Virus record (IMG/VR): IMGVR_UViG_3300029258_001520
Coordinates: 1 to 25,999 of that record
Strand: one strand, 5' to 3'
Source: a virus
DNA length: 25,999 nucleotides
Shown: positions 2,330 to 10,243 of the stretch, one piece after another
How the letters are laid out: each line of letters starts with the position of its first letter
Position numbering within the stretch: position 1 is the first letter of the stretch
The notes under the pieces: model-generated
Databases searched by the model: none
What the model saw: only the letters and a program-made list of their open reading frames with translations
Told to the model about the DNA's origin: nothing
Position numbers and translations under genes: made by a program

Positions 2330-2755
2330 TTACAATCCTTTTTGTTCTTTCAGTTCTGCAACACATTTCTTGTAGTGTTCTATCATTTCTTCTATCTCAG
2401 GTGTTGTTATTTTTATAAGTTGTTTATCATACACCATTCTTTCGACCTCGTCTTCTCACAAATATTTCTGCATAAACAGCGTGTAGTTAATATAGTTTCA
2501 ACTCAAGAATACATTGCATCTCATACATTGAACGTGACAGTTTTTCTCATCCCAACGATATTTATAATTTGACCTGGATATGAAATGTCCGTTCTGCATC
2601 TCTTTCCAATGCTTTATATCTCAACATGTCACACACTCACAATTTCAGTATTTGTCAGTTCCCAACAGGCGTATGTATTGAGAAAAAATAGCGTCTAATT
2701 TTTTTACCAGTTTTCACCTTGTTGGTTTTTTCTTTCTCGTTTTCTTTTTTGACAT
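2330..2755 (-). CDS. ninG: NinG/Rap-like recombination protein
   Basis: The core matches the lambda NinG (Rap) family: a C-x-x-C-G zinc motif (ECVTCGD), then W-K-x-M-Q-N-G-H-F-I-S-R, then N-C-H-V-Q-C-x-R-C-N, followed by a G-x-Y-x-x-Y stretch. Rap is a Holliday-junction/D-loop nuclease in lambda. From ATG 2755 the product is 141 residues, short for the family (about 200). The frame stays open upstream and is strongly Lys-rich, as in NinG N-termini; a TTG at 2914 would give 194 residues and overlap the preceding gene by about 30 bases. No upstream ATG exists in that part of the frame, so the true start is uncertain. The helicase and SSB-like neighbours fit recombination-linked replication. Confidence 0.82.
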
Positions 2756-2883
2756 ATTGGTATTGATAGCACTACGCTTCTTTTGTGTCGCTCATTTATT
2801 TTTTGACTTCAATGACTCCTTGCGTTTCTCTTGATATTTCTTTTGACTTTCAATTTGTTTTTGCCTAAATTTCTTTTGTTGTT

Positions 2884-3222
2884 TTATTTTCTTTTCAAAT
2901 TCTTTTCTATCCAATTTTTTGTATATGTGACTAAAAGCTCATAATCCATTCCTATTTTTATTTCTAACAATGCACACGATAATTGACAGTCTTTTATTTT
3001 TCGTCCGTGTGGCTCTAGCATTGTTGTCACATCATACATATTCGATAGTTGTACGTATGCATCTAGTCTGAGAGATGGACTTGTCCATACGTCTATGATG
3101 TAATCTTTTCACAACAACACTTTTCATCACAACGCTTTCCTTGTCTTTACAACACCGTTTATCCTTCTTAAAATGTTGTCTTCTGGTTTTTGTCTTGTAC
3201 TTTCTGTAGAACGAAAACTCAT
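2884..3222 (-). CDS. Hypothetical protein (112 aa) overlapping the helicase end
   Basis: Unrecognised. It starts MSFRSTESTRQKPEDN, has a mixed hydrophobic/charged composition (LLGKDYIIDVW, LRLDAYVQLSNMYDV) and a basic tail (KNWIEKNLKRK). The start overlaps the last 55 bases of the helicase gene in another frame, a sign of translational coupling. The frame contains TGA-Gly codons (two in tandem in ALGGKVLLGKD) and no other stop. The reading frame that runs on into ninG is also open across this region; this frame is preferred because its composition is protein-like and the other is Lys/Cys-biased. Position between helicase and NinG-like genes suggests a replication or recombination accessory. 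Confidence 0.62.
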
Positions 3223-3968
3223 CTTGAAAAATCCACATCAAATAAAAAGTCTATATTCTTTTTTCCGAACTTGTTCTTAATTATAGAACACGCAATATAT
3301 CCGTCTTGATTGCTTAACAAGAACACAACCTCACTTGAAGCGTATAGCTCTCCTGCTCCTTTTAACGATATGAATGATCTGTCTCATTTGCTTATGTCTC
3401 TACCAGTTGTATTGCTTACCTGCGATAGAGAGAATACTGTTGCTCCTGATTGTATTGCTAGTTGTTGGACGTCTCTTGCTATTGTGGACATCCTTTCGTA
3501 TTCGCTATTCCCTGGACATTGTACGTTTTGGATGAAGTCGATGAACACAACATCAGGTTTCTCATCCATAACATTTTGGATAATAGCATCGATGCTGTAC
3601 TTATCATCGTATATACTCAGTCAATCAAAGTCCTCCAAGTTTATGTCATCAAGTTCCAAATCTCAAAATCTTTTTTGATATTTATTACAAGCCAAGTTCC
3701 ATAATACCATTCATACATCCACCTCCAGTGAGTAGAAGTGTACTTTCTTTTTTTTCCATAGATAGTGATTTGCGTATGTATAGGCAAACTTTGATTTACC
3801 TGTGTTCGAGTATCACGCTATCACATACACCTTTCCAGGTATTACACCACTCGTTTCTTCATCTATTTCAGCGTATGGACTTGTCATTCATAGCATACCA
3901 TCAGATCTCTTCATCTGCATATACTTCTCTAATCATTCTATCGCTTTTTGTAAATTATCAGTAATCAT
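3168..3968 (-). CDS. DnaB-type replicative helicase (ATPase domain only)
   Basis: A 266-residue RecA-fold helicase. The Walker A motif is IAGYSNTGKS (Lys58, Ser59), where the first Gly is encoded by TGA. Walker B is VVFIDFI with Asp144. A downstream L-S-Q-V-S-N motif and DRSFISLKGAGELYASSEVVFLL match DnaB motifs 3 and 4. It would unwind DNA at the phage fork as a hexamer. At 266 residues it lacks the roughly 150-residue N-terminal collar of cellular DnaB, so it resembles compact phage/plasmid helicases. In-frame stop TAA lies just upstream, which limits the start; ATG 3968 is the first. It follows the replisome organizer by about 20 bases. Confidence 0.9.
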
Positions 3969-3987: not shown

Positions 3988-4728
3988 CTATCGTCCCTTG
4001 CTTTTATTTCTAAACCGAGTATTTATTCTTCCTTTGTGACTTTGCTTCTTAATCATACTTTTGTCTCATTCGTGATAATCAAAACATTCTTCTACTGTAT
4101 TGTAAACAACTTTCCGTTTATGATTTCACATTTGGTCGTATCAAAATGTATCTTTACTTTTTCTTTTCAATCGTTCTACAAACTTTTCTATTTCTTTTTT
4201 GTCTTCTTGTATTCTGTATCCTGCTTTTTCTATAAACAAGTCAAACAATATTTCTAATGCTTCAACATTTTTTGTTAAATATTCTGTATCAAACAAATTT
4301 CTGATTTGGTCTTTTTCTTTTATATATTTTTCTTTTATATATTCTTTATCATTATTAGTTGTGGTTATTTGTTTGTTATGTTGATGGTTATTTGGTTGGT
4401 TATTTTCTTTTTCATCGTCGTTGTAAATACTGTAGTTTACTATAGTTATCAAAGAATATTGGTTGGTTGATTTGGTGGTTATGTTGTTGGTTGCTTTTAG
4501 TTTATCTATTGCGGTCCTAATTTGCTGCCTTGACAATCATAATTCTACCCCTATTTTTGATGGTGATGATATGAAGCTTCATCTTTTTATCTCTTGTCAT
4601 CTCCATTGCTTTCCCGTATGGTTCGCCTTTATGCAACAGTGCACAAACACTCTAAACGTGTTAGCGTCTGTGTATCGCTCCCGTTCAGTTATTTTTCTAT
4701 GCAATTTTATTCGTCATTTATTTTGCAT
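3988..4728 (-). CDS. Phage replisome organizer / replication initiation protein
   Basis: A 246-residue protein. The N-terminal half matches phage replisome-organizer domains: G-R-I-K-L-H-R-K-I near the start, FRVFVHCCIKANH, KQWRGQEIKRGSFISSPSKI, a helix-turn-helix at ELGLSRQQIRTAIDKL, then ITTKSTNQYSLITIVNYSIYN. These winged-helix proteins bind the origin and load helicase; the helicase gene follows directly. The middle is Asn/Gln/Lys-rich and low in complexity, probably a linker. The C-terminal part (LEILFDLFIEKAGYR and a basic tail) could contact the helicase. Gly codons read from TGA fall at conserved sites (RGQEI, RGSFI, ELGLS). Expression is probably controlled by the leader at 4744-4909. 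Confidence 0.85.
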
Positions 4729-4743
4729 CTGTTCACATAAAAT

Positions 4744-4779
4744 AAAATCCAGAGGAGCGAGCAAGAACCTCTGGATTTT
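4744..4779 (-). terminator. Strong hairpin in the leader of the replication operon
   Basis: A perfect 12-bp stem (4744-4755 with 4768-4779, core ATCCAGAGG/CCTCTGGAT) and a 12-base loop, followed leftward by TTTTATTTTATG. It lies only 15 bases before the replisome-organizer ATG and just after the structured element at 4783-4846, so it reads as an attenuator or a regulated intrinsic terminator. A T-run on the other side would let it work in both directions. Confidence 0.65.
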
Positions 4780-4782
4780 AAT

Positions 4783-4846
4783 GTATAGTCCCTCCCCCTT
4801 GTTTGGGGTCCGCCTATCCGTTGTGGCTATAAAGCCCCTACTATAC
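4783..4846 (-). ncRNA. Compact structured leader element (unidentified cis RNA)
   Basis: 64 bases closed by a perfect 7-bp stem (GTATAGT/ACTATAC). Inside, a GC-rich core stands out from the AT-rich surroundings: read leftward, GGGG near the 5' side, a GGCTTTATAGCC hairpin, ACCCC, then GGGGGAGGG. The CCCC can pair with either flanking G-run, so two exclusive folds are possible. Order along the transcript is promoter, this element, terminator hairpin, gene, the architecture of a transcriptional riboswitch or protein-binding attenuator. It fits no tRNA (no T-loop GTTC) and no class I can name. Confidence 0.5.
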
Positions 4847-4869
4847 AAATCAAAAGATATTGCTCGCCT

Positions 4870-4892
4870 TTGATTATTCAAGTAATAATCAA
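4870..4892. promoter_or_regulatory. Operator-like inverted repeat over the -10 region
   Basis: TTGATTATT (4870-4878) and AATAATCAA (4884-4892) form a perfect 9-bp dyad with a 5-base centre. It overlaps the -10 box of the candidate promoter at 4882-4909, a classic repressor site. The HTH-like gene just upstream (4948-5184) is a natural candidate ligand, by position only. Confidence 0.5.
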
Positions 4893-4909
4893 TCAAAAAT
4901 CGTTGTCAA
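4882..4909 (-). promoter_or_regulatory. Promoter for the replication operon
   Basis: Read leftward: consensus TTGACA (4904-4909), a 16-base spacer, then TATTAC (4882-4887). Transcription would begin near 4875, so the structured element at 4846-4783 would be the first thing transcribed. Confidence 0.55.
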
Positions 4910-4947: not shown

Positions 4948-5184
4948 CTATTTCAATCATATTGACTTCTTGTATTCATCTAAAAACGTTTGTAGTCTGT
5001 TTATGTGGTTTTCTACTACTATACAGAATAGCTTTGCGGTGTCTCGTTTTGGTATAGACTTATATTTTCGATTTTTCATAGTCGATATATTTATACCAAT
5101 TTGTTTACAGTATCGACTATTGCTTTTTCCTAATTCTGTTATTATTTTTTTTTGTAGCTCTATTATCTGTTGTCTTTTTGTCAT
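4948..5184 (-). CDS. Small helix-turn-helix-like DNA-binding protein (78 aa)
   Basis: It starts MTKRQQIIELQKKI. The segment RYCKQIGINISTMKNRKYKSIP resembles a Cro/CI-type helix-turn-helix (an alpha helix, a turn at IGIN, and a recognition helix starting STMKN), followed by a C-terminal helix that may dimerise. The frame passes one TGA (SIGLK) and ends at TAG. A TTG 15 bases upstream is an alternative start. It precedes the promoter/operator of the replication operon on the same strand and is a plausible regulator of it. The family assignment rests on pattern only. Confidence 0.6.
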
Positions 5185-5302
5185 CTGTCCATTTTGCAAT
5201 ATAAAAACATAAGTCTAGGATCAGTATGTATGCACATCATATAAATAATAATGCACCTCATATCAAAAAAATATAATATATAATCCAATCTATAGTAGTC
5301 AT
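5117..5302 (-). CDS. Small single-pass membrane protein (61 aa)
   Basis: MTTIDWIIYYIFLIGGALLF continues into IGCAYILILDLCFYIA, one or two hydrophobic segments filling residues 5-38, then a basic hydrophilic tail (KKNNNRIRKKQ). Glycines in the membrane segment come from TGA codons. It overlaps the start of the HTH-like gene by 68 bases in another frame. Possible roles are superinfection exclusion or a lysis accessory; nothing in the sequence decides. Confidence is moderate because the gene is short and overlapping. Confidence 0.45.
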
Positions 5303-8541: not shown

Positions 8542-8775
8542 ATGTATGAATTGATGTTATATAGGACAAAGAAAGAATTGATACGTGTTCATTGAATAGA
8601 TGAGGAGATTTTTAAGGAATGGGAGAGAGATGGAGATGTTATAAAGGTGTGCGATCAGGATAGGAATGTATTATGATGGTGCACGAGTGAGGATAGTATT
8701 TTACTTAGTATGGCTATAACGTATGGCGAGAGGTTTGTGAGGGGGAGCGATTGATACGAGTCAGTTGGCGAATAG
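8542..8775 (+). CDS. Small hypothetical protein (77 aa)
   Basis: MYELMLYRTKKELIRVHGID, then EEIFKEWERDGDVIKVCDQD and a C-terminal region including SILLSMAITYGERFVRGSDG. Mixed alpha/beta, unrecognised. It overlaps the start of the large terminase by 53 bases in another frame, implying translational coupling. Three TGA-Gly codons. A GTAAGG stretch lies just upstream but no strong Shine-Dalgarno. It may be a packaging accessory by position. Confidence 0.6.
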
Positions 8776-10243
8776 GTTATCTGATAGGGTATGGAGATTA
8801 GAGGCTGGGGTATTGTATAAGATTAAGGATAAGTGAGGTAATGTAATACCGTATCATCCTAACGAGGCACAGAGAGATTTGCATAGGAATCAGTGGTATA
8901 GGAATATAATATTGAAAGCGAGGCAGTTAGGGTTCAGTACGGACATAGAGATACAGGCGTTAGATTATGCGTTGTTTAATGAGAACGTAAATGTGTGAGT
9001 AATAGCACATGATTTAGAGAGTGCGAAGAAGATATTTAGGGATAAGGTAAAGTTTGCGTGGGATAATTTACCGGAGTGGATTAGGGAGTTCTATAAGGTA
9101 AAGACGGATAGTGTGAATGAGATGAGTTTTAGTAACGGAAGTACAATAAGTGTAAGAACGAGTTTCAGGTCGGGTACGATACAGTTTTTGCATATATCAG
9201 AGTTTGGGAAGATATGTGCGAAGTATCCTGACAGGGCGAAAGAGATTGTTACAGGAGCGATAGAAGCTGTAGGAAAGGATGGGTATATATTTATAGAGAG
9301 TACGGCTGAGGGGAACGAAGGGTACTTTTTTGATATGACAATGGAAGCAAAAGCGAATATGGAAACAGAGAAGGAGTTAAATAATTTGGATTATAAATTC
9401 CATTTCTATCCATGGTGGGAAGACCCGAACTATTTCTTAGATGACGACCATGTTGTTATAGGGAAAGAGGATGAGGAGTATTTTGATATGTTGAAGGAGA
9501 AGTATGGCATAGAGGTTACGGAGCAACAGAAGAAACGGTATGTAAAGAAATTGGACATATTAGGGAAAGATATGCATAGGGAGTATCCTAGCTATCCAGA
9601 GGAAGCGTTTAACGTTATTTTGGAGTGAGTGTATTATGAGAAAGAGTTGATGATGGCGAGGAAACAGAAAAGGATATGTAAAGTACCGTATGACGAAAAT
9701 CTGCCTGTATATACAGCATGGGATTTATGAGGAGCAGGATGAGGAGACGAAACAGCTATCTGGTTTTATCAGATGTACGGAAAAGAGATAAGAGTGATAG
9801 ATTACCGAGAAGGGACAGGTAATTCTTTGTCTGAAATTGTATATACGGTACTAAAACCTAGGTGATACCGTCTAGAGATTAACTATCTGCCACACGATGC
9901 AGTCGTAGTGGAGCTAGGTACAGGTAAGAGTCGTGTAGAGGTCTTAGAAGATTTGTGATTAGAGTGTGAAGTTGTGCCTAAGTTGAGTATAGCGGATGGT
10001 ATCCAAGCGGTAAGGGAAGTGTTTTGAAGTTTATGGATAGATGAGAGTAAATGTAAGCAGTGAATTAAGTGTTTACAGAATTATAGAAGAGAATGGGATG
10101 ATAAATGAGGGACATTTAAGCAAAGACCGTTACATAATTGGGCATCACACTGAGCAGATGCTATGAGATATATGGCTGTAAGTTTGCAGGAAGAATTAGA
10201 TGATAGCGTTATGAATAAAGCCATCGTTGCAAATTGGTTGTAA
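8723..10243 (+). CDS. terL: Terminase large subunit
   Basis: A 506-residue packaging motor. The N-terminal ATPase shows PNEAQRDLHRNQWYRNIIL and a Walker A-like ARQLGFST at about residues 66-73, FLHISEF with the Walker B Glu near residue 160, and FIESTAEGNEG as the coupling motif. The C-terminal RNase H-like nuclease shows DLGGAGGGDETAIWFYQ (Asp334), YLPHDA, and HGADAMRYMA (Asp479), the three acidic metal sites. Twelve Gly residues come from TGA by my count, several at motif positions. A stop two codons upstream forces the start at ATG 8723. It cuts and threads the genome into the prohead through the portal encoded downstream. Confidence 0.95.

Follow-up and report, generated by a model that had tools for sequence, protein, structure and literature searches.

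Transcription attenuators that work through mutually exclusive folds are known, including ahead of plasmid rep genes (PMC5703833). Among these, the countertranscript-driven attenuators of pT181 repC and pIP501 repR resemble the leader described here, in that a terminator-like structure attenuates a replication-protein gene (PMC5703833). No attenuator of this kind ahead of a phage replication operon was found in the literature searched, and gene control is little known in phages that infect Absconditabacteria and Gracilibacteria, recoded bacteria of which most are uncultured. The reading of TGA as glycine together with CGA/CGG as tryptophan is the code that Shulgina and Eddy reported for Absconditabacteria (PMC8629427). 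Liu et al. described phages of such hosts in which TGA is recoded (PMC10746230), and a text search of that paper returned neither CGA nor CGG. Here, we analysed a leader in a 26-kb virus record (IMG/VR IMGVR_UViG_3300029258_001520; the whole stretch of 25,999 nucleotides will be referred to as the window). This leader is very likely a genuine genetic switch, and in the best-supported reading it is probably a cis-acting transcription attenuator of the replication operon.

Under the standard code the genes of the window are broken, and long open reading frames are obtained when TGA is read as glycine, with 191 such in-frame codons across the 15 main ORFs. The first gene of the operon (3988-4728, minus strand) encodes a replisome-organizer or DnaD-like replication protein of 246 aa with TGA as glycine and CGA/CGG as tryptophan. 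It was identified by tblastn matches to replisome organizers of phages and to DnaD-like helicase loaders, by translation and by alignment with two relatives, L018 and L019. Because its residues 6, 16 and 18, all encoded by CGR, are aligned to tryptophan in standard-code homologues as far as the match extends over them, the replication protein also requires CGA/CGG to be tryptophan. In the terminase (8723-10243, plus strand), the CGG codon of residue 272 is likewise aligned to a tryptophan in a terminase relative, L003. Judged by these codons, the window phage appears to use a code of the NCBI table 37 type, i.e. the Absconditabacteria code, and the code in turn would appear to place it in an Absconditabacteria-type host. 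The next gene of the operon encodes a DnaB-like helicase (3168-3968, minus strand; Pfam DnaB_C, E 8e-16), and it is followed by a gene for a NinG-like protein (2330-3241, minus strand; Pfam NinG, E 8e-20).

Relatives were sought in IMG/VR using a nucleotide pattern that covers the N-terminus of the organizer (WIKLHRK and then WEWY) and that permits or demands CGR at the tryptophan codons. This pattern, which holds no leader sequence, returned two other phages with the Absconditabacteria code, L018 and L019, whose organizers are 43% and 37% identical to that of the window, respectively. Two further replication-protein patterns (YGR/CGR at tryptophan) added only a chance match, L027, and ordinary back-translated organizer searches returned nothing, as expected given the differing glycine and tryptophan codons. 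In five standard-code organizer homologues (from Vibrio, lemur-gut and Cellulophaga phages), another annotated ORF ends within about 55 nt upstream. A separate record, Dulem virus 31 (L041, PP511318.1), is labelled Microviridae, yet it is 35.8 kb long and carries a replisome organizer, an exonuclease and an endodeoxyribonuclease, so that its taxonomy label looks wrong.

In the window, the layout of the leader fits within 180 bases 5' of the replication gene on the minus strand. A 12-bp hairpin with a T-run had been noticed in a first, sequence-only reading; it lies at 4779-4744, and both sequence and fold describe it as an intrinsic terminator with a 12-nt loop and a T-rich tail (TTTTATTTT, 4747-4739). 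The key part of the arrangement, absent from the list of that first reading, is a pairing between an upstream antiterminator strand (AT5', GGCGAGCAA, 4868-4860) and a complementary strand within the terminator loop (AT3', TTGCTCGCT, 4764-4756), amounting to nine pairs, one of them G-U. Between AT5' and the terminator lies a core of 66 nt (4847-4782), which the folds show to be closed by a stem, P1 (UGUAUAGU/ACUAUACA).

The same layout was detected upstream of the homologous gene in both relatives: an antiterminator strand, a P1-closed core and a terminator whose loop is complementary to the antiterminator strand. In the case of L019, AT5' is AGCTTTTGCGAGC (13 bp), the core runs TGATAGTAGG...GGGAGGGACTATCA and the terminator is AATCCTCTAGGA-[aactcGCTCGCAAAAGC]-TCCTAGGGGATT. 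In the case of L018, AT5' is ACAATCCTTGC (11 bp), the core runs CCGTTTG...CAAACGG and the terminator is AAAGCCCTAT-[agctttctcGCAAGGATTGTgc]-ATAGGGCTTT. Across the leaders P1 is perfect and 7-8 bp long, and the core measures 66 nt in the window and in L019 and 68 nt in L018. The gap from P1 to the terminator is 2, 4 and 3 nt in the window, L019 and L018, and the gap from AT5' to P1 is 2 nt in both relatives and 12 nt in the window. An intrinsic terminator thus stands between the promoter, which is only a weak match, and the first gene of the operon in all three phages.

In each leader the loop strand abuts the 3' arm of the terminator (0 nt apart in the window, an overlap of 1 in L019 and 2 nt apart in L018), so that the two helices are not expected to form completely at the same time. 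Stepwise minimum free energy folding of lengthening 5' fragments of the window leader gave the antiterminator first, and the terminator only once its 3' arm was complete. When the antiterminator and the terminator were forced, the ensemble energies were -45.1 and -47.1 in the window, -48.4 and -48.0 in L019, and -38.6 and -36.9 in L018, so that the two forms are about 2 kcal/mol or less apart in all three leaders. Folding, which the sequence-only reading had proposed with and without the terminator, yielded mutually exclusive forms of nearly equal energy. Between its likely start and the T-run, the RNA of the window is far more stable than shuffled versions of it (z -4.2, 0 of 300), and the z values of the three leaders are -4.2, -4.0 and -2.8.

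How far chance could produce such an arrangement bears on a plainer explanation, namely that the region is an ordinary small-RNA gene or an end-of-operon terminator with incidental complementarity. The same look would be expected of a terminator between the same-strand gene at 4957-5199 and the organizer, and complementarity of the quality seen in the window is not rare by itself: in 60 whole-genome shuffles, the nine-pair match of the window was reached 17 times, the 11 pairs of L018 three times and the 13 pairs of L019 never. The window match is therefore insufficient alone at the genome-wide scale, and the weight is carried by place and recurrence. When the terminator loops on both strands of the three phages were compared with the preceding 220 bases, the replication leader ranked first in each. 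The combination of a terminator, an antiterminator (score at least 7.2) and a P1 of at least 7 bp occurred in 0 of 30,000 shuffles for each of the three leaders. Moreover, the complementarity recurs, longer (13 and 11 pairs), at the same place in two relatives that were found without using it; none of 30,000 shuffles of either leader attained these levels, and the sequences are largely unlike those of the window. We therefore consider an ordinary terminator very unlikely.

Altogether, a pairing that excludes the terminator is present according to the folds, the shuffles and the pairwise comparison of the leaders. In this comparison, both sides had changed at 7-8 positions of the antiterminator, 7-9 of the terminator and 2-6 of P1, and yet the helices remained fully paired, counted on only three sequences with helices anchored by hand at their inner ends. 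At such divergence, these counts are best taken to mean that each phage keeps its own pairing, individual compensatory events not being traced. When strands were swapped between phages, they mostly did not pair. P1 and P2 (a hairpin inside the core) of the window and L019 provide a cleaner covariation, as the flanking words align there, and each of these two helices carries two double compensatory changes. An alignment of the three leaders by MAFFT misaligned the helices. Covariation among related leaders, which the first reading had put forward as a check of its stem, is supported by two independently found phages with the same layout and compensatory changes.

Inside the core, the folds place P2 (GGCU-UUAU-AGCC) at 4836-4825 and P3 (CCCC..GGGG) at about 4808-4794. 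The 64-base element with a 7-bp stem that had initially been described (GTATAGT/ACTATAC, 4846-4783) was recovered, and a further U-A pair lengthens its stem to 8 bp (4847-4782). Its two exclusive folds were also reproduced: with P1 closed the energy is -20.6 kcal/mol, and with AUAG of the P2-P3 joint (J2/3) paired to CUAU of the P1 3' strand it is -15.5 kcal/mol, the 5' strand of P1 being kept blocked in that fold. Compared to its shuffles, the window core alone has a z of -3.2. Common to the window and L019 is the series of words AGU-AGG(C)-P2-..ACGG..GG..-P3-AGGG-ACU, with helices that differ in sequence, P2 being GGUA-GUAA-UACC and P3 CCUUUCG-GAAA-CGAAGGG in L019. A possible second partner in J2/3 for the P1 3' strand is found in both, and in L019 the two folds lie within about 1 kcal/mol. 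In L018, GUUUG of the joint J1/2 duplicates part of the P1 5' strand, but the core is otherwise unlike the other two, with two hairpins and a putative loop-loop complementarity (GUAG/CUAC). Among the three sequences, the words of the candidate aptamer and the covariation in P1 and P2 are common to the window and L019 and absent from L018. Because the L018 core differs, the core would be a fast-evolving or exchangeable sensor, or no aptamer at all. A G-quadruplex, suggested by the GG tracts in the joints, was discarded, as RNAfold with a quadruplex term favours the ordinary fold.

Upstream of the switch, a candidate -35 box TTGACA is read from the sequence at 4909-4904 (minus strand), and a 9-bp inverted repeat, TTGATTATT-ACTTG-AATAATCAA (4870-4892), lies over the presumed -10 or start as a possible operator. 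The TTGACA and the dyad of the promoter proposed in the earlier reading are therefore present; its -10 is poor (TATTAC or ATTACT, about 4887-4881), a promoter scan placed it not above chance and the promoter is not in the list of that scan. L019 has an 8-bp dyad (CTTTATTA/TAATAAAG) in the corresponding place, and AT-rich dyads of such a type are common. The gene just 5' of the leader on the same strand (4957-5199) encodes a small basic protein that may regulate the dyad at 4892-4870.

Promoter-like sites on the opposite strand are relevant to another trigger of the same attenuator, in which an antisense RNA from inside the replication gene would pair with the leader and steer it to the terminator, as in the rep systems of pT181 and pIP501, which control the same kind of gene (PMC5703833). 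Such a site, facing the leader and matching 11 of 12 positions, lies inside the gene start of L019 (2842-2814, minus strand), and the window has one matching 9 of 12 at the matching place (4594-4622, plus strand). However, promoter-like sites are no more frequent than in shuffles and L018 has none, and the sites of L019 and the window fall on homologous coding residues, which may make them a coding coincidence. The Rfam family ctRNA_pT181 matches L019 far under its threshold (23.1 versus 56 bits). An antisense trigger is thus unlikely in our estimation.

Translation within the leader was considered in two forms. Firstly, the sequence-only reading had set the organizer ATG directly after the T-run; this did not hold, since the ATG at 4738 meets a TAA after six codons even with TGA as glycine, and homology places the start at the ATG at 4728. 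The frame of the organizer itself is open through the window leader, but it is interrupted by stops in L019, so a coding leader is unlikely and was rejected. Secondly, attenuation could be mediated by a ribosome on a leader peptide, as ATG-started ORFs of 26 codons in L019 and 16 codons in L018 end at a TAG in the 5' arm of the terminator. These two peptides are unrelated and the window leader has no ATG ahead of its terminator, which makes control by a leader peptide highly improbable.

Taken as a transcription attenuator, the leader would act as follows. In the order of transcription, AT5' would be made first, followed by the P1-closed core, the 5' arm of the terminator, the loop bearing the sequence complementary to AT5', and finally the 3' arm with the T-run. 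Capture of the loop by AT5' would block the terminator, and the replication genes would be transcribed; without such capture, the terminator would form and release would be limited to a leader RNA of about 135 nt. P1 flanks the switch helices. Since both states retain P1, simple strand competition is an unlikely mode of action for the core; most likely, it would hold or release the two ends of which the antiterminator is made. In the likeliest version, a correctly folded or ligand-bound core would bring the antiterminator strands together and favour read-through, and with an altered core the terminator would win. Computation gave two exclusive folds, near-equal energies and a conserved layout with compensatory changes, whereas control of transcription by these folds is inferred, and so are the way in which the effect runs and the kind of signal. 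Against the attenuator stand the compatibility of P1 with both states, the deviating L018 core and the weak -10. Of the attenuator with a sensor that had first been suggested, the attenuator is upheld by the exclusive folds, the relatives and the compensatory changes. The sensor is plausible, since the core and its closing stem are well placed and shared by two of the three phages, L018 having a different core.

Candidates for the trigger are, roughly in the order of our belief, a small molecule, a phage protein and an antisense RNA. Tentatively, the leader could represent an undescribed, phage-borne riboswitch class, in which a 66-nt aptamer (a P1-P2-P3 junction with AGUAGG, ACGG and AGGG in its joints) would sense a small molecule and antitermination would decide on transcription of the replication operon in Absconditabacteria-type phages, with exchangeable cores on one conserved platform. 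It is also conceivable, if doubtful, that a phage protein (the organizer or the protein encoded at 4957-5199) binds the core or AT5' of the same attenuator, which would amount to replication feedback instead of metabolite sensing. The variation of the core between L018 and the other two would be expected if each phage had its own partner, and the controlled gene encodes a nucleic-acid-binding replication protein; the binding itself is hypothetical.

The impression of the first reading that the leader belongs to no recognised class agrees with a covariance-model search of Rfam 15, in which it matched no family at gathering or lax thresholds. T-box likewise gave no Rfam match, and no tRNA or tmRNA gene was detected by ARAGORN. 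The leader had no blastn match among phages. A 15-mer of the core had 11 matches in IMG/VR, all unrelated and mostly in GC-rich contexts, and the gapped core words returned L019 and a chance match in a coding region (L025). In 353 host-class genomes these words were not more frequent than a reversed-pattern control (7 hits), and the host-class genomes yielded neither a convincing prophage copy nor a convincing organizer homologue preceded by a leader of this kind. The terminase relatives L003-L006, by appearance largely standard-coded, showed no organizer and no convincing leader. A Campylobacterales MAG contig (L022, JAMOPZ010000019.1) encodes, at 443-468, a GTPase motif of the EF-Tu type in which an in-frame TGA stands for glycine, and it is probably a mis-binned Gracilibacteria contig.

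If the attenuator reading is true, the start of phage DNA replication would depend on an RNA decision that is open to assay in vitro. As a candidate new aptamer, the core would show through its ligand what the phage measures in a minimal, parasitic host, and an exchange of cores on one platform would inform on the evolution of leader RNAs. In comparison with known systems, pT181 and pIP501 are set by antisense RNA, whereas no conserved antisense promoter was found in the three phages; moreover, the phage AT5' and its partner strand in the terminator loop pair across a closed core that lies between them, and no Rfam family matches the leader at threshold. Riboswitches that terminate transcription likewise place a compact structured core, followed by an exclusive antiterminator and terminator, before a start codon, but the phage core is in no known aptamer class of Rfam and is not conserved in all three phages, its ligand being hypothetical. 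The glutamine riboswitch of the marine phage Melnitz (PMC9004378) is likewise a regulatory RNA in a phage of a streamlined host; it is of a known class associated with tmRNA, whereas the leader described here matches no class and sits on a replication operon. What would be new is thus a candidate element without a family match, carried by phages of a recoded lineage, in which an upstream strand is set against a terminator loop around a closed core.
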